From Bacteroidota bacterium (lineage in GTDB: Bacteria > Bacteroidota > Bacteroidia > UKL13-3), in assembly GCA_034439655.1 (NCBI GenBank), contig JAWXAU010000108.1, forward strand, positions 1-34,837: a DNA stretch of 34,837 nucleotides, written 5' to 3'. The stretch's first letter is position 1; the number at the start of each line of letters is the position of its first letter. This document shows positions 40 to 26,151 of the stretch, piece by piece. The position numbers and the translations under genes are program-made. The notes beneath the pieces are model-generated. The model did no database searches. It had not been told where the DNA came from and saw only the letters and a program-made list of their open reading frames with translations.

Positions 40-2492
40 TGAGAACACACATAGATTACGGGATATACTTCAATTCTGATTTTTGCCAAATTGCCAGAAT
101 CGAGAATGGTGTGCCCGTAATTGTGGAATCTAATTTGATGAAAGATTCAATGCCTTTGTGTGTGGTAATAAATCCAAGGAAGAATATAATTGTAGGCGAT
201 GCAGCTTATGCAGCAAATATTAAAGATAAGCTTCGACTTTTAAAGACGTTTGGCAAAGATGATTCAAATAGTTATTGTGGATTTACAAGAACCTTGGGTA
301 CAGATATAAAATACTATAGCAGCATATTGAATAAAGACTTTTCTTCCGAAGAATTACTTGCAGAGTGCTTCAAACAATTAAAGTCGTTTGTGTCTGATGA
401 AATATTAAATTCAGTAGTAATTACTGTTCCTGATAAGTTTATTAACCCACAAAATGAAGCAGTAATTAGAGCAGGTAAGATGGCAGGTTTTAAGCAAATT
501 GAATTGGTTCAGAAATCAATTGCAACAAGTTTAGGGTATGGTTTGGATTCAAAACATAAAGACAGCTTTTGGTTAATGTTCGATTTTGGTGGTAGCACTT
601 TTGATGTTACCTTGATAAAATCCGAAGAAGGAATTTTAACTGTGAAAGATATAGATGGCGACAATTGGCTTGGAGGTAAAAATTTAGATGAAGCAATTGT
701 TGACCAAATCATTATTCCAAATTTGCAAGAAAAATTTGCTATTGATAGTATTTTGGAAGATGCTGATAAAATGGAAATTCTTAAAAACGCAGTAAAATTC
801 TATGCAGAAGAAACAAAAAAAAAATTATCATTTGAGGAATCACATTGCATATTTTCCTATTTTGGAGATTTGCCTTTTGAAGATGAAAATGGTAATGAAT
901 TAGCAATAAACATAGAAATTACTCAACAAGATTTGGCTTGGGTATCACGACCCATTTATCAAAAAGCAATTGACATTACTATTGATTTACTCAAAAGAAA
1001 TAATCTGAAAGGAAAGGATATAGATGCTATTTGCTTAGTTGGTGGAGATACTTATTCGCCAGTTCTTCGCAAAATCTTAAAGGAGCAAATCACGGACAAA
1101 ATAGATGTTTCCATTGACCCTATGACAGTTGTTGCTAAAGGAGCTGCATTATTTGCTTCAATAAATGACTTAGGTATGGCACAAATAGCGTCTACAGGTA
1201 CTATCGCATTAGATTTAAAATATGAATCTGCAACCATAGAAGAGCATACTTTAATTAATTTTAAAATAAATTCAGCTTTAACTACTTTTTCAATACCTGA
1301 AAAAGTATACGCAACCCTAAAAAGAGGAGACAAAGCATATTTAAGTAACAAGATTTTAATTCGTGATAAAAAAGCAACTTTAATTGAAGTTTTATTGAAT
1401 CAAAATGAATCAAATTATTTTTCTATTATTTTAACTAATGAAAAAGGCGATAGAATTCCTTGTCAGCCAAATCAATTCAAAATTATTCAATCTGATATGG
1501 CTGACGACTTTCCAATTACTCTGCCCTACCATATTGGAATTAGTAAATATTGTGAAACGGAAGATAAAGAACTTTTTCAGACAATTAAAGGATTAGAAAA
1601 ACATAAAAAGATTCCTGCGACAGGAGTAATAAATGGTTTTAAAACAAGATTTGATTTAAGACCTGGAGTTATAAGTGATGTAATTCGTTTCCCAATTTAT
1701 CAGGGAGATTACAATGCAGAGGGCACGGATCCATTATTAAATAATCACGTTGTTGATATTGTTATTTCAGGTGAATCTTTACCAGCCTTACTTCCTGCCA
1801 ATAGTGATATTGATTTTACCGTCAAAGTAGATAAATCGCAATTGCTGACTTTCTCCGTTTATATTCCTTACTTAAATCACACAGAGGAGTGTACAATTGA
1901 AATAAAGCAAACTAAACCACCAACAGTGGAGTTTTTATTTAAGGAAATTTCAAAAGCAAAACAAACAGCAAAAAGATTAAATGCAACCAATGTATCTGAA
2001 AAATTAGAAGTTTTAGAAGTACAATTAGAAAATGATAAAGTAAGTGCGGATGTCAAACTGAAAATCTTTGATGAACTTCGTAAGGAATTATTAAAGTTGG
2101 ATAGTGCAATAAAAACTGCCGAATGGCCAAGGATTGAGCAAGAACTAAAAGATGCTTTTTATGAGATGGAAATATCATCTTCAAATGAAGCCCAAATTTC
2201 TGAGTTCCGTTTTACAATAGAACAAATATTAAAAGAAAAGAATATTCGTGAAGCTAAACTAATGTTAGTTGAAATCAATGATTTTAATGGTTTAACAACA
2301 ATATCAGATAAGTATATTGATGATTTAAAAGGTAAACTTGTATTGTTTTACGCTGACAATCCATCAATGGGAAAAGAAAGATTTAGATTTCTATTAATGG
2401 AATTAATTAGAATTGAAAAAAATAAAGTTGCTGAAGATGATAAAATGAAAGTCACTGATTTACTTAAAAAAGAATTATTAAAATGGAAATAA
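39..2492 (+). CDS. Divergent Hsp70 (DnaK-like) family chaperone
   Basis: This 817-residue protein has an Hsp70/actin-type ATPase domain at about residues 1-375. Phosphate 1 is IDYG at 5-8, where DnaK has IDLGTT. Residues 129-170 follow the DnaK pattern VPAYF...AGL...YGLD, but with QKSIATS in place of EPTAAA. Phosphate 2 is FDFGGSTFDV at 181-190, followed by GDNWLGG at 207-213, and the adenosine motif is LVGGDT at 333-338. A beta-rich substrate-binding-like part and a charged helical C-terminus follow. It is longer than DnaK (about 640 residues) and lacks its C-terminal tail. The ATG at 39 is chosen because it places the phosphate-1 loop at residue 5, as in the family. The gene overlaps the next one by 10 bases. 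It probably binds client proteins in an ATP-dependent way in the cytoplasm; the client is unknown. Confidence 0.88.
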   Translation: MRTHIDYGIYFNSDFCQIARIENGVPVIVESNLMKDSMPLCVVINPRKNIIVGDAAYAANIKDKLRLLKTFGKDDSNSYCGFTRTLGTDIKYYSSILNKDFSSEELLAECFKQLKSFVSDEILNSVVITVPDKFINPQNEAVIRAGKMAGFKQIELVQKSIATSLGYGLDSKHKDSFWLMFDFGGSTFDVTLIKSEEGILTVKDIDGDNWLGGKNLDEAIVDQIIIPNLQEKFAIDSILEDADKMEILKNAVKFYAEETKKKLSFEESHCIFSYFGDLPFEDENGNELAINIEITQQDLAWVSRPIYQKAIDITIDLLKRNNLKGKDIDAICLVGGDTYSPVLRKILKEQITDKIDVSIDPMTVVAKGAALFASINDLGMAQIASTGTIALDLKYESATIEEHTLINFKINSALTTFSIPEKVYATLKRGDKAYLSNKILIRDKKATLIEVLLNQNESNYFSIILTNEKGDRIPCQPNQFKIIQSDMADDFPITLPYHIGISKYCETEDKELFQTIKGLEKHKKIPATGVINGFKTRFDLRPGVISDVIRFPIYQGDYNAEGTDPLLNNHVVDIVISGESLPALLPANSDIDFTVKVDKSQLLTFSVYIPYLNHTEECTIEIKQTKPPTVEFLFKEISKAKQTAKRLNATNVSEKLEVLEVQLENDKVSADVKLKIFDELRKELLKLDSAIKTAEWPRIEQELKDAFYEMEISSSNEAQISEFRFTIEQILKEKNIREAKLMLVEINDFNGLTTISDKYIDDLKGKLVLFYADNPSMGKERFRFLLMELIRIEKNKVAEDDKMKVTDLLKKELLKWK

Positions 2493-4291
2493 ACTACAAA
2501 GGTATATTACCAAAGAACTTTTCAATAAATGAAAAATACAAAGTTTTGCTTTTCATTAAGCAAGGTCATAATGCGGAAACCTATAGAGTAAAAGGAAAAG
2601 ATGGGAAGTTGTATTTTCTTAAATTATTTAATTATTCAAAACTTCATCATTCATCCTTTGATGCTGATAATAACTTATTAGAAACTGAGATTGTAAAAAC
2701 TCTAAAAAATGATAATATTGTAAAGTATGTTGATAGCGGTGAATTATTTCTTGAAAATAAACGTTATGGTTATTTAGTACTAGATTTTATTGCAGGCGAA
2801 ACGTTAACAGAAAAAATTAAAAGAGAACCCATTACATCGCTTTATGATTTAAAACAAATCATTGGTGGTGTTTTGAATGGATTAAATTACTTACATAATT
2901 TGCCATCTCCAATTATACACAATGAAATTACACCGCATAATATCATGCTTGATTTATCAGCGGAAGTACCTCAAGCAAAAATTATAGATTTTGGATATGC
3001 TCGCTTTTTTCATTCATCAACAAGAGCCTTTAATAAAGTAGGTTTAGATTTAAATTATGTCGCTTCGGAATGCTTTCACAATATATTTTCTCCACAATCA
3101 GATATTTTCTCTATGGGCGTATTAATGTATCAATTACTATTTGGTATTACCCCATGGACTAATGAAATATCTAAATACAGAACCAGCAGAGGCAATGTTG
3201 AGGAATTCCTATTAGAAGAAAGAATGAAACCATTGGCATTTCCGAATATTGAAAATAAAATTGCAGATTTTGATGAGTCAATTTTGAAAGTTATAAAAAA
3301 AGCATTACAACAAGACCCTGAAAATAGATATAAAAATGCTGATGAATTTGTGAAGGCTCTTAATGGAGAAATTGAGTTTGATGAAATAAAAGAAAAAAAG
3401 AATGAACCTATTGAAGAAAAAAAGAAGATAGCATCAACCGTAAAAAAGAGTAAAGGATTTATTGCTATTGCTGGGATGAAGAAATTAAAAGACCAGTTAA
3501 AAAATGATGTGATAGATGCGATTGAAAACCCTGAAGAACATAAAAAGCATAATCTTGGATTACCTAATGGAATTTTGTTGTATGGCCCTCCAGGATGCGG
3601 AAAGACATTTTTTGCTGAAAGATTTGCCGAAGAAGCAGGTTATAACTTTATGAAGGTAATTTCATCTGATATTGCAAGTATTTATATTCATGGTTCTCAG
3701 GAAAAAATTGGCAACCTATTTAAAGAAGCTCGGGAAAAGGCACCCACAATTTTATATTTTGACGAATTAGATGCGATGGTTCCAGATCGTGAAAAATTGA
3801 ATAATCAAAGCCAAAGTGGCGAAGTAAATGAGTTTTTATCTCAATTAGATAATATTGGAGAATCCGGTGTTTTTGTAATTGGGTCAACTAATAAGCCAGA
3901 CTTAATTGATAAGGCTGTTTTGCGAGCAGGTAGATTAGAAAAATGGTTTTATATTCCACCGCCAGACTTGGAAGCAAGAAAATCAATGTTTGAATTGTAT
4001 TTAATAGACCGACCATTAGACTTTGGAATTGATTATAGTAAATTGGCTGAATTGACAGAAAATTATGTTTCAAGTGACATCAAATTATTGATAGATGAAG
4101 CTTCTAGAAAAACAATTCGTGACAAAACTAAACGAATATCAATGGAGATATTGGAGTTTATTATTAAGAATCAAAGACCAACAGTTCCTCTATCAGAATT
4201 AAAAAAATACGAAGATATGAGAAAGAAAATTGAAGAGGAAATTGATGAAGACAAATCCAATGACCGACCAAGAATCGGCTTTAAATCTTAA
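2483..4291 (+). CDS. Protein kinase-like domain fused to AAA+ ATPase
   Basis: This 602-residue protein has two modules. Residues about 18-295 form a Ser/Thr kinase fold: a degenerate glycine loop (GHNAETY, 28-34), ATP lysine K47, catalytic-loop asparagine N153, DFG at 169-171 and the helix-F aspartate D207. The HRDLKPEN loop reads HNEITPHN at 146-153, so the catalytic Asp is Glu and the loop Lys is Thr. It is therefore probably a pseudokinase or an unusual kinase. After a Lys/Glu-rich linker, residues about 325-550 form an AAA+ domain of the FtsH/Cdc48/proteasomal type: Walker A GPPGCGKT (368-375), Walker B ILYFDE (423-428), sensor 1 GSTN (467-470) and arginine-finger region LRAGRLEKWF. The pore-loop aromatic may be Y401. 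No protease motif follows, so an unfoldase or remodelling role is inferred. Together with the overlapping Hsp70 gene it may form one machine. Confidence 0.9.
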   Translation: MEINYKGILPKNFSINEKYKVLLFIKQGHNAETYRVKGKDGKLYFLKLFNYSKLHHSSFDADNNLLETEIVKTLKNDNIVKYVDSGELFLENKRYGYLVLDFIAGETLTEKIKREPITSLYDLKQIIGGVLNGLNYLHNLPSPIIHNEITPHNIMLDLSAEVPQAKIIDFGYARFFHSSTRAFNKVGLDLNYVASECFHNIFSPQSDIFSMGVLMYQLLFGITPWTNEISKYRTSRGNVEEFLLEERMKPLAFPNIENKIADFDESILKVIKKALQQDPENRYKNADEFVKALNGEIEFDEIKEKKNEPIEEKKKIASTVKKSKGFIAIAGMKKLKDQLKNDVIDAIENPEEHKKHNLGLPNGILLYGPPGCGKTFFAERFAEEAGYNFMKVISSDIASIYIHGSQEKIGNLFKEAREKAPTILYFDELDAMVPDREKLNNQSQSGEVNEFLSQLDNIGESGVFVIGSTNKPDLIDKAVLRAGRLEKWFYIPPPDLEARKSMFELYLIDRPLDFGIDYSKLAELTENYVSSDIKLLIDEASRKTIRDKTKRISMEILEFIIKNQRPTVPLSELKKYEDMRKKIEEEIDEDKSNDRPRIGFKS

Positions 4292-7274: not shown

Positions 7275-9191
7275 ATGAGCCAAGAAGCACATACCAATAC
7301 CGGGCACGGTGATGCCCACGAAGAACACCACCACCACGAAGAAACCTTCATATCGAAGTATGTCTTCAGTATGGACCACAAAATGATTTCAAAACAGTTT
7401 TTGGTTACTGGAATTATTATGGGAGTTTTGGGCATGATTCTATCTATGATATTCCGTGTACAATTGGCGTGGCCTACCACCGATATGAGCTACCTTAAAC
7501 CCATTTTAGGTGGCTGGATTAGCGACACAGGTAAAATGGATCCGAGTTTTTATATGTCATTGGTAACTTTACACGGAACCATTATGGTGTTCTTTGTATT
7601 GACAGCCGGCCTTAGTGGTACCTTTAGTAACTTGCTTATTCCATTGCAAGTGGGAGCCCGCGATATGGCTTCTCCCTTTGTGAATATGCTTTCATATTGG
7701 TTTTTCTTTATGAGCAGTGTGGTATTGTTCATTTCCTTATTTATCAGTAGCGGCCCAGCAGCAGCAGGTTGGACAGTTTATCCTCCCTTGAGTGCACTAC
7801 CTAAAGCAATGCCTGGTTCAGGATTAGGGATGACTTTATGGTTGGTATCTATGATTTTATTTGTAGGATCGGCTTTGATGGGCGGAATGAATTATATAGT
7901 TACAGTGCTTAACATGCGTACCAAAGGTATGAGCATGACACGTTTGCCACTTACTATTTGGGCATTCTTCTTAACAGCCGTATTAGGTTTACTTTCTTTC
8001 CCTGTGTTATTGGGAGGTTGCCTATTATTACTATTCGACCGTAGTTTTGGAACTATGTTTTATCTAAGCGATATCCCTGCAGAATTAACAGGTGGTATAG
8101 AAAGAGTAGGAGGAAGTCCGATATTGTTCCAGCATTTATTCTGGTTCCTAGGTCACCCCGAAGTATATATTATATTATTGCCTGCATTGGGATTAACTTC
8201 CGAAATTATTGCAACCAATTCCCGAAAACCAATCTTTGGTTATCGAGCGATGATTATGTCGCTGTTGGCTATTGCCTTCCTCTCGTTTATTGTGTGGGGA
8301 CATCATATGTTTATTACAGGTATGAATCCTTTCCTAGGTTCGGTTTTCATATTGGCTACGCTTATTATAGCGGTACCATCGGCTATCAAGGTATTTAACT
8401 ATTTGGCTACACTGTGGCGAGGAAATATCATACTCACCCCTGCTATGATGTTTGCTATTGGATTGGTTTCATTCTTTATATCAGGCGGTCTTACTGGACT
8501 TTATCTAGGTAATGCGGCTCTCGATATTAATTTACACGATACGTATTTTGTGGTTGCCCACTTTCATATTGTAATGGGTACTGCAGCTATATTTGGTATG
8601 CTTGCAGGTATATATCATTGGTTCCCTAAAATGTACCGCAGAAGAATGAACGATAAATTGGGAAGTTTGCATTTCTGGCTAACTATTATAGCTGCCTATG
8701 GTGTGTTCTTCCCAATGCACTTTATGGGCTTGGCAGGTGTTCCCCGTAGGTATTATTCATTTACTTTGATGAACGAATGGCATGTATGGGATAACCTCAA
8801 TATATTTATTACTTGTGCAGCATTTGTAGGAGGTATGGCTCAGGTTATATTCTTATATAATTTCTTCAACTCTATTAAGAACGGTCGCAAAACAGAACAG
8901 AATCCTTGGGGTTCCACTACTTTGGAATGGACCGCACCCATCCCACACGTTCATGGCAACTGGTATGGCGAAATACCAACTGTTTATCGCTGGCCTTATG
9001 ATTATTCAGTTCCCGGGGCCGATCAAGATTTCATTCCACAGGATGTCCCCCACGAAGGCGAAGGAGGGACCGATTCCGGACCACATTCGCCACAAGCACC
9101 TCAATCTAAAACTTTGGAGAAGGGGGGCACACTCCACTTCGCAATGCCTAAGTTTTTAAGCAAACTCTTTGGTAACTTATCAAGAGCATAA
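7275..9191 (+). CDS. coxA: Cytochrome c oxidase subunit I
   Basis: The catalytic subunit, which reduces oxygen to water at the heme a3-CuB centre and pumps protons. It is 638 residues long with about 12 membrane helices. The metal ligands are visible: H100 (heme a), H294 of GHPEVY with the cross-linking Y298, H343 and H344 (CuB, WGHH), H429 (heme a3) and H431 (heme a) in VAHFHIVMG. E296 of HPEVY is the residue at the entrance of the K proton channel region, and D130 is a candidate D-channel residue. The N-terminus carries a His-rich stretch (GHGDAHEEHHHHEE, 10-23) and the C-terminus a hydrophilic tail. Two overlapping frames inside it are shadows. Confidence 0.97.
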   Translation: MSQEAHTNTGHGDAHEEHHHHEETFISKYVFSMDHKMISKQFLVTGIIMGVLGMILSMIFRVQLAWPTTDMSYLKPILGGWISDTGKMDPSFYMSLVTLHGTIMVFFVLTAGLSGTFSNLLIPLQVGARDMASPFVNMLSYWFFFMSSVVLFISLFISSGPAAAGWTVYPPLSALPKAMPGSGLGMTLWLVSMILFVGSALMGGMNYIVTVLNMRTKGMSMTRLPLTIWAFFLTAVLGLLSFPVLLGGCLLLLFDRSFGTMFYLSDIPAELTGGIERVGGSPILFQHLFWFLGHPEVYIILLPALGLTSEIIATNSRKPIFGYRAMIMSLLAIAFLSFIVWGHHMFITGMNPFLGSVFILATLIIAVPSAIKVFNYLATLWRGNIILTPAMMFAIGLVSFFISGGLTGLYLGNAALDINLHDTYFVVAHFHIVMGTAAIFGMLAGIYHWFPKMYRRRMNDKLGSLHFWLTIIAAYGVFFPMHFMGLAGVPRRYYSFTLMNEWHVWDNLNIFITCAAFVGGMAQVIFLYNFFNSIKNGRKTEQNPWGSTTLEWTAPIPHVHGNWYGEIPTVYRWPYDYSVPGADQDFIPQDVPHEGEGGTDSGPHSPQAPQSKTLEKGGTLHFAMPKFLSKLFGNLSRA

Positions 9192-9211
9192 TATATTTCA
9201 TATAATAATAA

Positions 9212-10111
9212 ATGCAAAAAATACAAGTCATACAACTTAAAAGTACCAGCACCTTTGCTGCAAAGCTTGCCGACTATAAGCAGCTTTTTAAGCTAAGGCT
9301 TACTTTGTTGGTAGTGTTTTCTGCAGCATTCGGATTTGTGATGGCATCTGGTGGATCTAGTTTCGATTGGATGGGATTAACGCTCATTTGTGTGGGAGGA
9401 TTTTTAGTAGTTGCAGCGTCTAATGGTTTGAACCAAGTAATAGAACGCAACTATGATATATTGATGACACGTACCGAAAATCGCCCTGTTGCCGCTGGCC
9501 GCATGGGCATTGCAGAAGCATCATTGTCATCATTGATAGCTGGTGTTATCGGTATCGCAATACTCGGGTTATATTTCAACCAACTCACAGGAATTTTATC
9601 ATTTATATCATTGGCATTATATGCGTTTGTATATACACCGCTTAAACGCATTCACCCTGTAAATGTATTTGTGGGTGCAATTCCAGGGGCATTACCACCC
9701 ATGCTTGGCTGGACCGCAGTTACCAATAATTTAGATTCGATGTGTATCGCCTTGTTTATGATACAATTCTTTTGGCAGTTTGTACATTTTTGGTCAATAG
9801 CTTGGTTGCTCGATGATGATTATAAAAAAGCAGGATTTAAAATGTTGCCCAAAACAGGTCGTTCAAAAGCTACAGCCATGCAAATATTTGTATATGCAGC
9901 CATGCTTATTCCTTGTGGATTATTGCCTTTACAATTGGGAAAAGCAGGTACAGTTTCAGCAATACTGGCAACCGTTGCAGCATTATATGTTTTGTTCCGT
10001 GCTGCTCGATTATTAAAAACCTGCGATGCCAAAGAAGCCAAACAAATTATGTTTTCAAGTTATATATATTTAACGGTTACACAAATTGCCTATATGATCG
10101 ATAAGATTTGA
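9212..10111 (+). CDS. ctaB: Protoheme IX farnesyltransferase (heme O synthase)
   Basis: This enzyme adds a farnesyl group to heme b to make heme O, the precursor of heme A for the oxidase. The 299-residue protein has the UbiA prenyltransferase pattern: the first Asp-rich motif lies in NQVIERNYDILMTRTENR (about 75-92) with RPVAAGRM after it, and the second is DDDYKKAGFKMLP. About eight or nine hydrophobic helices are seen, so it is an inner-membrane protein. It lies between coxA and a subunit III-like gene, and its stop (TGA, 10109-10111) abuts or overlaps the next start. No heme A synthase gene is visible in this window. Confidence 0.95.
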   Translation: MQKIQVIQLKSTSTFAAKLADYKQLFKLRLTLLVVFSAAFGFVMASGGSSFDWMGLTLICVGGFLVVAASNGLNQVIERNYDILMTRTENRPVAAGRMGIAEASLSSLIAGVIGIAILGLYFNQLTGILSFISLALYAFVYTPLKRIHPVNVFVGAIPGALPPMLGWTAVTNNLDSMCIALFMIQFFWQFVHFWSIAWLLDDDYKKAGFKMLPKTGRSKATAMQIFVYAAMLIPCGLLPLQLGKAGTVSAILATVAALYVLFRAARLLKTCDAKEAKQIMFSSYIYLTVTQIAYMIDKI

Positions 10112-10116
10112 AGTAC

Positions 10117-10701
10117 ATGAAAAAGCAAATGATACAAAAACCTATACAGGAGCAAGAGTACACGGTACATCCACTCAAATTTATTTTGTGGCTGATTATA
10201 GTGGCTGCTGTTATGCTGTTTGCAGGATTAACAAGTGCTTATATAGTTAAGAAAATTGATGGCAAAGCATGGCTCGAGTTCCAATTGCCTTCCATGTTTA
10301 TGGTTTCTACCATAGTAGTAATATTATCGAGTGTAACCATGTGGTGGTCGCACCGTTCAGCAAAAAGAGATGAAATTCAACGTGTAAAAATGGGGCTTTT
10401 TGCTACCTTATTATTTGCATTGTCATTTGTAGGATTACAATATATGGGATGGAAACAATTGGTCGAGAATAATGTATACTTTACGGGCTTCTCAGTTTCA
10501 GCATCATTTGTATATGTTATTTCCGGATTGCACGTATTACATATTTTGGGTGGTATTATATTCTTAGGAATTTTACTTGCCAAAACTTACCGTTACGAAG
10601 TACATAAGAAAAATATGCTTTCTATATCATTGTGCAGCACCTATTGGCATTTTGTGGGATTGCTTTGGGTATACTTGTATTTTTTTATGACCTACGCTTA
10701 A
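10117..10701 (+). CDS. Heme-copper oxidase subunit III-like protein
   Basis: This protein of about 194 residues has five hydrophobic helices and the subunit III signature: LHVLHILGG near the fourth helix and TYWHFVGLLWVYLYFFM at the end. It belongs to the CoxC/CyoC family and probably stabilises the oxidase. I chose the ATG at 10117. A TTG at 10108 is in frame and overlaps the previous stop, but the next two residues would be Lys-Tyr with no added conserved sequence. A second, longer subunit III gene follows 40 bases later, so the operon carries two such genes, as in other Bacteroidota. Confidence 0.85.
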   Translation: MKKQMIQKPIQEQEYTVHPLKFILWLIIVAAVMLFAGLTSAYIVKKIDGKAWLEFQLPSMFMVSTIVVILSSVTMWWSHRSAKRDEIQRVKMGLFATLLFALSFVGLQYMGWKQLVENNVYFTGFSVSASFVYVISGLHVLHILGGIIFLGILLAKTYRYEVHKKNMLSISLCSTYWHFVGLLWVYLYFFMTYA

Positions 10702-22428: not shown

Positions 22429-23409
22429 ATGGAAGAAAGCAAAGGAGAAATATTAATTTACGAGAGTGAAGATCATCAAACGCAGATTGAAGTGCAGTTT
22501 GATCAGGAAACGGTTTGGCTTAGTCAGAGTCAGATGGCTACTTTGTTTAAGCAATCAAAGCAAAACATTAGTTTGCATATTAATAATTGCTTTAAAGAGA
22601 AGGAGCTTTCATCTAATTCAGTTGTCAAGGATTCCTTGACAACTGCCTCAGATGGGAAGAAGTATAAGACAAAATATTACAATTTAGACGTGATAATCTC
22701 TGTTGGTTATCGAGTAAAATCAAGACAGGGCACACAGTTTCGTATTTGGGCGACCCAAAGGCTCAAAGAATACTTAGTTCAAGGATATTCTATTAATCAA
22801 AAACGTTTGGAGCAGTTGAAAACAGTTGTGAAGATTATTCAGCAGTCTGGAAGCACAGAAAATGTTCAATTGTCAGAAGCTAAAGGTTTGTTAGACATTA
22901 TTACAAACTATACCCAAAGTTTCATATTACTGAATCAATTTGATAGTCATAGATTGAAAGAAGAAGCATTGAATGAAGCTATATTATATGTTATTGAATA
23001 TGCCGAAGCAGTGAAAGCTATCCAAGAATTAAAAAGTATATTGATACAGAAGAAGGAGGCATCTGATTTATTTGGTAAGCAAAAGGATGAAAGTTTTAAA
23101 GGTATTTTAGGAAATATAGTGCAAAGTTTTGCTGGTGAGTATTTATATAAAAGTATTGAAGAGCAAGCAGCCCATCTATTATATTTTGTGATAAAGAATC
23201 ATCCATTTTCGGATGGCAATAAAAGAATTGGTGCATTTTTATTTGTATGGCTTTTACAAAAAAATAAACACCAACTTAAGAAAAATGGAGAACTTAAAAT
23301 TAACGACAATGCTTTGGTAGCAATAGCTTTATTGGTGGCTCAAAGTAATCCAGATGATAAAGAATTAATGGTAAAATTAATTGTGAATTTAATTAAGAAT
23401 AACAATTAA
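22429..23409 (+). CDS. RhuM-type domain fused to a Fic domain
   Basis: This 326-residue protein has a RhuM-like N-terminal part (about 1-130; TVWLSQSQMATLFKQSKQNI and YYNLDVIISVGYRVKS are its marks). After a helical linker (about 130-215) comes a C-terminal Fic domain with the complete active motif HPFSDGNKR (258-266). Fic enzymes usually transfer AMP or another phosphate-containing group to proteins. RhuM proteins are often found near mobile DNA. I see no separate antitoxin gene beside it and no obvious inhibitory (S/T)xxxE(G/N) helix. It therefore may self-regulate, be a signalling enzyme, or be a solitary toxin-like gene. It stands alone behind a hairpin. Tyr and Ile codons here are less TA-rich than in neighbours, a weak hint of transfer. 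Confidence 0.85.
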   Translation: MEESKGEILIYESEDHQTQIEVQFDQETVWLSQSQMATLFKQSKQNISLHINNCFKEKELSSNSVVKDSLTTASDGKKYKTKYYNLDVIISVGYRVKSRQGTQFRIWATQRLKEYLVQGYSINQKRLEQLKTVVKIIQQSGSTENVQLSEAKGLLDIITNYTQSFILLNQFDSHRLKEEALNEAILYVIEYAEAVKAIQELKSILIQKKEASDLFGKQKDESFKGILGNIVQSFAGEYLYKSIEEQAAHLLYFVIKNHPFSDGNKRIGAFLFVWLLQKNKHQLKKNGELKINDNALVAIALLVAQSNPDDKELMVKLIVNLIKNNN

Positions 23410-23426
23410 TAAGATATAGCATATTA

Positions 23427-24746
23427 TTATCTAGCCACCTCAATCTTGTATTTTTTTCCTTTAATTTTCTCTTCTTTAATGCGAGACAAAACGCCACCGA
23501 TTTCATCAGTTTTGATAGCTACAAATGATTGAAAATCTTTAACCTCAATAAGTCCCAAATCATCTTTGTTTAATTTCCCTTTTTGTAAAAAGAATCCGAC
23601 AATATCTACCTTATTGAGTTTGTTTTTTTTGCCACCACTTATATATATAGTTTTATATAAAGGAGCATCGGGCAAATTATTTTTCTTATTCAGTTTTAAT
23701 TCTTTGAGACTTTTATCTAAATATGCTGGCTGCTCTTCTTGTTTTGATGTCATAATATAAGCAGTTCCTGATGCATGCATGCGTGCCGTACGGCCATTGC
23801 GATGCACAAACTCTTGCTCTTGCACAGGCAACTGGAAATGTATGACGTGTTTCATTTCGGGAATATCCAAACCACGAGCAGCCAAATCGGTGGTAACCAA
23901 ATAATTTACGCTGCCATTTCTAAATTGTATCAATGCACGTTCACGGTCATCCTGTTCCATGCCACCATGATAAAAAGTACTATATATGCCTTTGTCGTTT
24001 AAGTACTCACTCGTGCGTTCGCAGGCTTCTCGGTGGTTGCAAAATATAAGAGCGGATTCTGAATTCAAAGAACAGATTAATTGATATAAACTATATACTT
24101 TGTCACGGTCTTCTGAAATCACCAATTTGGTACTGAGACTTTCATTCACCTCATCTTTTTTTGGATTGAAGTTTAATACCGTAGGCGAACTTACTCCCGC
24201 AAAATCTGGAATTTGTATACTAGAGGTTGCAGAAACCAATATACGTTTTTTGAGGTTTTCGAGTACACCGATAATTTGTTCCATCTCGCCATGGAAGCCA
24301 AGTTCGAGCGATTTGTCGAACTCATCTAAAACTAATATATGTATATTTTCGAGTGTAAAACTTTTGCGTTGTATATGATCAGCAATTCGTCCAGGGGTGC
24401 CAATTAATACTGCTGGTGGATTGCTCAGGTTTTGCACTTCTGTTTGAGTAGAATGACCGCCATAACATACATTTACTTTATATCCTGTGCTCATTTTTTT
24501 CCAAACTTGTTCTAGCTGCATGGCCAATTCTCGGGATGGAACAAGTATCAAGCATTGAACAGTTTTAATATTTGGATTTAATAATTCTGCTAGCGGCAAC
24601 ATAAATGCTAACGTTTTTCCAGAGCCAGTTGGGGCAACTAACAAAACCGTATCGTCTTTGATGATGGACTTGTGTGCAGCCTCCTGCATGGGTTTGAGCT
24701 CGGATATTCCTAGATTTGAAAGTGTATTTTGGAGTTGGTTTTCCAT
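23427..24746 (-). CDS. DEAD-box RNA helicase, DbpA-type
   Basis: This 439-residue ATP-dependent RNA helicase has the usual motifs: Q motif around LKPMQ (17-21), I APTGSGKT (38-45), Ia PSREL, Ib TPGR (117-120), II DEFD (141-144), III SAT (172-174), V TTDLAARGLD and VI HRNGRTAR. Motif II has Phe where the family name has Ala. The last 75 residues resemble the DbpA RNA-binding domain, which in E. coli directs the helicase to 23S rRNA, so a ribosome-assembly role is likely. The start at 24746 (MENQLQ) is preferred to the longer open frame to 24899, whose extra 51 residues span a GC palindrome and promoter-like DNA. Confidence 0.9.
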   Translation of the reverse strand: MENQLQNTLSNLGISELKPMQEAAHKSIIKDDTVLLVAPTGSGKTLAFMLPLAELLNPNIKTVQCLILVPSRELAMQLEQVWKKMSTGYKVNVCYGGHSTQTEVQNLSNPPAVLIGTPGRIADHIQRKSFTLENIHILVLDEFDKSLELGFHGEMEQIIGVLENLKKRILVSATSSIQIPDFAGVSSPTVLNFNPKKDEVNESLSTKLVISEDRDKVYSLYQLICSLNSESALIFCNHREACERTSEYLNDKGIYSTFYHGGMEQDDRERALIQFRNGSVNYLVTTDLAARGLDIPEMKHVIHFQLPVQEQEFVHRNGRTARMHASGTAYIMTSKQEEQPAYLDKSLKELKLNKKNNLPDAPLYKTIYISGGKKNKLNKVDIVGFFLQKGKLNKDDLGLIEVKDFQSFVAIKTDEIGGVLSRIKEEKIKGKKYKIEVAR

Positions 24747-24750
24747 GCTG

Positions 24751-24758
24751 TAAAGGTA
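24751..24758 (-). promoter_or_regulatory. Possible -7 element of the helicase gene
   Basis: On the minus strand TACCTTTA is one base from TAnnTTTG and ends only four bases before the chosen ATG. A leaderless transcript would result; the call is weak. Confidence 0.2.
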
Positions 24759-24792
24759 GGTTATAATGATTAATGGAAAGTGGTAAATGATG

Positions 24793-24806
24793 TCCGCCGC
24801 GGCGGA
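24793..24806. repeat. GC-rich palindrome TCCGCCGCGGCGGA
   Basis: A perfect 14-base palindrome in the gap between the divergent helicase and DsbA-like genes. It shares its CCGCCGCGGCGG core with 5627-5640. Confidence 0.6.
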
Positions 24807-24958
24807 ATGAATGATAAATGGGTTGTCGCACGAATTTGCTGCTTGTGGTCTGGCGTTTTCGCCAACCACAATATTGAATCCGCAAACAAAACATTGCACA
24901 AATTGTTATATAATATCAAAAAATAAAATTTATTATAATGAAAGTAGAGATATGGAGT

Positions 24959-24973
24959 GATGTGATGTGATGT
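24959..24973 (+). repeat. (GATGT)3 repeat disrupting the DsbA-like start
   Basis: Three perfect tandem copies of GATGT. With two copies the reading frame from ATG 24938 would be continuous with the gene below; with three it hits TGA at 24968-24970. Confidence 0.85.
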
Positions 24974-25578
24974 GTCCGTTTTGCTATATAGGAAAACGGA
25001 AATTTGAAATCGCATTGGAGCAGTTTGTTCAGAAAGATGACGTAGAAATTATTTGGAAAAGTTTTTTGTTGAATCCCGATATTAAAACCGACCCGAGTAA
25101 AAACATTCACGAATACTTGTCAGAAATTAAGGGAATCAGTTTAGCACAAGCTAAGCAGATGAATTATCAAGTAACGCAAATGGCCAGTGAAGTGGGACTT
25201 GAATACAATTTTGATACGGCAGTAATTGCAAACTCATTTGACGCACATCGATTTTCACATTTTGCAAAAAAGTATAATAAACAGAATGAAGCAGAAGAGG
25301 CCTTGTTCAAGTCATACTTTACCGAAGGAAAGAACACCGCTGATACAGATACCTTAGTGCAGTTGGCTGAAGACATTGGATTGGATGGTGAAGAACTTAG
25401 AAAGATTTTAGAAAGTGACGAATATATAAATGAGGTACGGCACGATATGGAAGAAGCTGCAGAATTCGGCATTAGTGGTGTTCCTTTTTTTGTCTTTGAT
25501 AGAAAATATGCGGTGAGAGGAGCACAGGATAGTGCGGTGTTTTTGCAAACGATGGATAAAATAATGGTTAATGGTTAA
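24967..25578 (+). CDS. DsbA/FrnE-family thiol oxidoreductase, N-terminus shifted
   Basis: This protein of about 203 residues matches the cytoplasmic DsbA-like FrnE family: CPFC redox motif near the start (MCPFCYIGKRKFE), a helical insertion, and ISGVPFFVFDRKYAVRGAQ with the cis-proline (VP) near residue 176. The normal family N-terminus, MKVEIWSDV, is present in another frame from ATG 24938. It is separated from MCPFC by one extra GATGT unit. From the GTG 24967 or ATG 24970 the protein could still be made, but without its first beta strand. The gene may be off, phase-variable, or misread. It is divergent from the helicase gene and ends inside an inverted repeat. Confidence 0.8.
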   Translation: MMCPFCYIGKRKFEIALEQFVQKDDVEIIWKSFLLNPDIKTDPSKNIHEYLSEIKGISLAQAKQMNYQVTQMASEVGLEYNFDTAVIANSFDAHRFSHFAKKYNKQNEAEEALFKSYFTEGKNTADTDTLVQLAEDIGLDGEELRKILESDEYINEVRHDMEEAAEFGISGVPFFVFDRKYAVRGAQDSAVFLQTMDKIMVNG

Positions 25579-25674
25579 TGCCATTCGGCAGCTATATATA
25601 ATTGTTAATGCCTTCCGATGCTTCGGAACCGCTGGTTTTTGTTTGCGTAAGCAACATTAGTAATTAACCATTAA
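25568..25674. terminator. Inverted repeat between convergent genes
   Basis: TTAATGGTTAAT (25568-25579) pairs with ATTAACCATTAA (25663-25674), enclosing smaller hairpins, including TTCCGATGCTTCGGAA. Both neighbouring coding regions run into or abut the arms, so it may serve as a two-way terminator. Confidence 0.45.
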
Positions 25675-26151
25675 TCATTGCAAATTAACCATTAAAGCCA
25701 AGTAATCGTGGCGTAAGTCTTCATGCAAAGTATCAATCAAACTATGTATTTTTTTGATTTGTTGCTCATATAAATTTATCAGCATTTGACTTTTATGAAA
25801 GGGGATTCCTGAGTTTTTGAGTTGGGTACAGAAATGTATATATAACTCCGCACTAAGACCCTTATCATTGATATATTTACTGTATTTCGATATAAGTCTC
25901 AAAGTTTTACGTAATCCTTTTTTTACAAAATATAAACTACTTTGCTTTTTTAGTTCAGTGATTTGCTCAGAAATATCGGCTTTTACTTCAACAATAAACT
26001 GCGTTTTATTTTGGGATTCAAATAATATATATCCTAGTAATTCTTTATTGTCTTTTTTATACTTGGCAACACTGATGCATAATTCCACCAAATCAGGAGC
26101 AGGCAAGAGTTGCAGCTCCTTTTTAATCTCGCTTAAAGTAGTAGATTTCAT
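25675..26151 (-). CDS. Conserved hypothetical protein, helical
   Basis: A 158-residue, charged, mostly helical protein with no signal peptide or membrane segment. The beginning (SEIKKELQLLPAPDLVELC) and AKYKKDNKELLGYILFE look like a small family I have seen as hypothetical in Bacteroidota, but I cannot name it firmly. It starts four bases after the flippase stop and so belongs at the end of the minus-strand operon. No catalytic motif is visible. Confidence 0.7.
   Translation of the reverse strand: MKSTTLSEIKKELQLLPAPDLVELCISVAKYKKDNKELLGYILFESQNKTQFIVEVKADISEQITELKKQSSLYFVKKGLRKTLRLISKYSKYINDKGLSAELYIHFCTQLKNSGIPFHKSQMLINLYEQQIKKIHSLIDTLHEDLRHDYLALMVNLQ

Follow-up and report, generated by a model that had tools for sequence, protein, structure and literature searches.

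The stretch of DNA analysed here, which we call the window, comprises 34,837 nucleotides from a draft Bacteroidota genome (GCA_034439655.1, contig JAWXAU010000108.1). It carries a FrnE/DsbA-like gene whose start is out of frame with its active site, next to a divergent helicase-like gene that is also its neighbour in the comparison genomes G001 and G002 (Table 1). Read directly, the forward strand from position 24938 is ATG AAA GTA GAG ATA TGG AGT GAT GTG ATG TGA. The MKVEIWSDVM frame hits this TGA (24968-24970) because the unit GATGT is present three times. The frame encoding CPFC is open to 25578, over 203 codons from GTG 24967 or 202 codons from ATG 24970. Its upstream in-frame stop is TGA 24958, so no earlier start is available in that frame. 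The 5-bp unit sits at codons 8-12, where a gain or loss shifts the frame, and removal of one unit makes the frame read S-D-V-M-C-P-F-C, as relatives encode it.

Table 1. Features at and beside the start of the FrnE-like gene, in window coordinates.
Feature	Positions	Strand	Basis
Original FrnE-like start, MKVEIWSDVM then TGA, now a 10-codon open frame	24938..24970	+	Direct reading; homologous start in 109 relatives
Pentamer array (GTGAT)x3.6, 100% matches	24957..24974	+	TRF
GATGT x3, one copy above any relative	24959-24973	+	Direct reading; relatives' loci
TGATG, short-frame stop overlapping ATG 24970, possible termination-reinitiation site	24968..24972	+	Direct reading; PMC6728339
Remaining FrnE-like frame with CPFC and GVPFF, without the first beta strand	24967..25578	+	Sequence, domain match, model
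Divergent DEAD-box-helicase-like gene, start taken at MENQLQN	23427..24746	-	Name from sequence motifs

The remaining frame scores 142.2 bits against PF01323 (DSBA), for which the curated cut-off is 25.6. Over its own full length it also matches two solved FrnE proteins, D. radiodurans DR_0659 (PDB 5cnw/5co3; E = 2.7e-46) and S. coelicolor SCO1869 (PDB 3gl5; E = 7.5e-36), and the alignment places in it the CP(F/W)C active site and the GVPFF cis-proline region that it has in common with both. A search of the gene against NCBIfam gave no match above the cut-offs of that collection. Judged from its sequence, the window gene is orthologous to the cytoplasmic thiol-disulfide oxidoreductases of FrnE/DsbA type, a common kind of enzyme. 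It differs from the FrnE subfamily of DsbA-like enzymes in its frameshifted start and in having no C-terminal CXXXXC; the only cysteines in the remaining frame are the two of CPFC. The C-terminal motif is optional and is missing in some described FrnE proteins (PMC8945050).

The structural context of the start was taken from the modelled G002 orthologue (pLDDT 93.6), which superimposes on FrnE 5co3 with a TM score of 0.96 and an rmsd of 1.0. In this model, the strand running into the active-site helix consists of residues 2-7, and W6, S7 and D8 lie in that strand or directly after it. A model of the downstream frame from Met 24970, built with a similar alignment, keeps the helical part, and strands 2-7 and 35-40 are lost. 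As a domain the gene is incomplete, with its N-terminal strand out of frame with the active site. Because the frame is broken at TGA 24968, the locus is a FrnE/DsbA-like member by descent, now broken.

We compared the start with homologous loci present in relatives of the window's genome or in a species-level genome collection, counting the 110 distinct loci that have a readable CPxC frame. In 109 of these 110, a [WIVS][ST]D[VIL]x segment is followed without interruption, in the same frame, by CPxC, in most cases as MKVEIWSDVMCPFCYIGK; the window is the sole exception. All 28 aligned orthologues share M1, W6, S7 and D8. The conserved in-frame start and these invariant residues indicate that the short frame in the window is the gene's own start, cut off from the rest. 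The earlier note had proposed that ATG 24938 is the expected FrnE start, that a third GATGT copy introduces a stop before CPFC and that two copies would restore the frame, and each of these statements is borne out. The same note had named relatives without MKVEIWSDV as grounds for dropping the proposal; the relatives do carry it.

GATGT copy number just 5' of the CPxC codons was scored at the same 110 loci, where the relatives are other species: 51 have no copy, 37 have one, 21 have two and the window alone has three. Across 395 genomes of the class, three copies before the CPF codons occur once, in the window's own genome. There GATGTx3 is found a single time, and 100 shuffles of the window gave an expectation of 0.00. 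Background rates for repeats and for gene breakage were taken from 326 kb of the own genome and about 790 kb of same-genus stretches. The array is the only one of period 5 and at least 18 bp in the 326 kb (Markov expectation 0.0); at a threshold of 15 bp, five arrays were observed versus 0.67 expected. When Asp-Val-Met-Cys is written GAT GTG ATG TG, two GATGT copies result. Since these codons are present in 21 relatives, the substrate for slippage is normal coding sequence, and because they account for the two-copy core, only the third copy requires an event. Slippage from two units to three, as the earlier note suggested, is thus the simplest origin of the array, the two-copy form being made by codons in relatives.

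The FrnE-like gene is often absent from the family. No FrnE-like match at E<=1e-8 was found in 39 of 64 family genomes. In the single-contig genome G022 the gene has a normal two-copy start and an internal TAA (L012, G022:C1 about 66,906-67,499), so that either the gene was inactivated independently here or the sequence is in error. G015 retains a fragmented remnant with several stops (L029 / L033, G015:C29 about 8,879-10,199), an older loss of the gene. Together, the missing copies, the G022 nonsense codon and the G015 remnant indicate that the FrnE-like gene has been lost repeatedly and is dispensable in the family. A second FrnE-like copy was looked for in the window's own genome, and none was found.

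The downstream part of the window gene shows little sign of age. Its frame is still open, and 98 of the 1,818 possible single-base changes would create a stop. Within a genus sample of three genomes, differences fall at codon positions 1/2/3 in numbers of 51/36/104 versus G002 and 62/30/102 versus G001. At columns conserved to at least 90%, the window gene differs in 8 of 76, a high count, and the other orthologues in 0-8, so some intact orthologues differ equally often. In AVSGAQ the window gene has arginine in place of the serine shared by all 28 orthologues, a substitution that may be a slight hint of relaxed constraint. The open frame and the excess of third-position differences fit purifying selection until recently, with at most slight relaxation.

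We consider it probable, at about two in three, that the window gene is a null allele of a dispensable FrnE-like gene, produced by a recent tandem duplication of 5 bp; we infer that the duplication is real, that it is recent and that it abolishes function. The codon-made GATGT pair would have gained its third copy by strand slippage. Translation from ATG 24938 would then end at TGA 24968 after ten residues. Ribosomes may restart at ATG 24970, which overlaps this stop, and the resulting product would lack the MKVEIWSD beta strand. In these respects the gene is like ordinary short-tandem-duplication pseudogenes: a single small duplication has arisen between pre-existing short direct repeats, in an otherwise intact gene that is dispensable in relatives, and no feature of the window gene was found that sets it apart from them. 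Against the null reading, an open downstream frame and an intact catalytic motif are equally expected of a working restarted protein.

That objection is the core of an alternative that we regard as improbable, in which the short frame serves as a leader and translation resumes at ATG 24970 to give a shortened but useful protein. TGATG is a stop-start overlap that coupled genes are known to use, and restart in Bacteroidetes does not depend on SD motifs, both of which suit reinitiation (PMC6728339). The downstream frame also retains CPFC and GVPFF. However, the overlap is an automatic by-product of duplicating GATGT, and none of the relatives starts at the position of ATG 24970. The segment that the short form loses is the strand into the active-site helix with its invariant WSD, and the short-form model loses two strands. 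Some restart at ATG 24970 is plausible. Without the WSD-carrying strand, the restarted product is probably not a working enzyme; this inactivity is suggested by the model, although an AlphaFold model is no test of stability. Around the start, RNA structure is unremarkable (MFE z -1.9, with 10 of 200 shuffles as good). Ribosomal frameshifting was considered and, judging by the sequence, rejected: the CPFC frame is -1 and GTG ATG TGA has no slippery heptamer, and a +1 shift at the TGA would lead into the wrong frame.

The main rival to a recent null allele, though still unlikely in our judgement, is an error of assembly or consensus, with the organism itself having two GATGT copies and an intact gene. 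The assembly is a 205-contig draft, probably a metagenome bin, and an error would agree with the intact repeat region at every other locus and with the unbroken remainder of the window gene. Any ordinary read, however, should span an array of 18 bp. A check for stops and frame changes in 82 non-overlapping gene matches between own-genome stretches and the same-genus genome G002 (28,797 aligned residues) likewise gave no clear broken orthologue, so the assembly shows no general excess of false frameshifts, although a single local one may still be present. Six of the 82 matches were flagged: in two the stop lies among the final few residues, in three all stops precede the likely true start, and the sixth, which has an internal stop, is an ATPase-like paralogue at 41% identity. 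A second candidate frameshift in the own genome, in a dihydroorotase-like gene (L134 3191), was set aside because the open reading frame of the relative is over-extended and there is no break.

The earlier note had also raised phase variation by GATGT slippage. On this reading copy number would toggle between two (on) and three (off) and be under selection. The unit suits such a switch: it is not divisible by three, lies beside the start codon and decides between an open and a closed frame. The comparison with relatives leaves the proposal unsupported, and we think it very unlikely. The array has only three units, and the pair of units is dictated by codons that 21 relatives keep with no sign of switching. 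A search of the other 394 class genomes found no three-copy array before the CPF codons. By the measures of hypermutable length and of polymorphism, the array thus falls short, with three units and a three-copy state in 1 of 110 loci (the others from other species) and 1 of 395 class genomes. Phase variation does not usually target a cytoplasmic redox enzyme, and the dispensability and independent breakage of the gene in the family favour plain gene loss. The meningococcal opa genes resemble the window gene in that a pentamer array lies within the start of the reading frame and its copy number sets the frame. In contrast to opa, the window gene has an array of three units, gives no sign of a second state and does not encode a surface protein. 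Of the opa genes, 83% have five or more pentamer units, and arrays of five or fewer rarely switch, at 0.007 per month of carriage for <=5 repeats versus 0.16 for >=9 (PMC7157529). An extension of the idea, in which the codon-encoded GATGT pair is a reversible slip switch in the genus and restart at TGATG in the 'off' state yields a little of a shortened redox protein, is highly speculative and in our view scarcely probable.

The main interest of the locus is in annotation. Automatic gene callers will start at 24967 or 24970 and report a seemingly intact DsbA family protein of 202-203 aa, despite the frameshifted true start. The D-V-M-C motif is also an instance of codons that happen to form a short repeat and so provide a ready site for a frame-breaking slip.

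The sequence around the gene contains further repeats. Between the helicase-like and FrnE-like genes (window 24755-24880) lie two dispersed repeats. One, at about 24775-24822 and including CCGCCGCGGCGG, recurs several more times in the own genome, with 83-97% identity between copies. The other, at about 24836-24872, contains the hairpin GTGGTCTGGCGTTTTCGCCAACCAC and has at least three further own-genome copies, with similar pieces in G001 and G002. The gap 3' of the FrnE-like gene (window 25562-25695) holds TAATGGT/ATTAACC heptamer repeats, to which other parts of the genome show short matches. Heptamer tandem arrays of at least three perfect copies occur six times in the 326 kb of own-genome sequence, versus 0.0 expected (L116:5982-6015, L116:13913-13935, L118:10042-10067, L120:2315-2336, L124:16958-16981 and L125:16691-16713). 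Open frames across these arrays are mostly short, so most of the arrays are probably intergenic.

Two other gene arrangements in the window were recorded. Adjoining the helicase-like gene, 22429-23409 encodes a protein that joins a RhuM-like N-terminal part to a Fic domain (PF13310, PF02661). At the beginning of the window, a gene for an HSP70-like ATPase (39-2492) comes directly before one encoding a fusion of a protein kinase domain and an AAA ATPase domain with lid (2483-4291).
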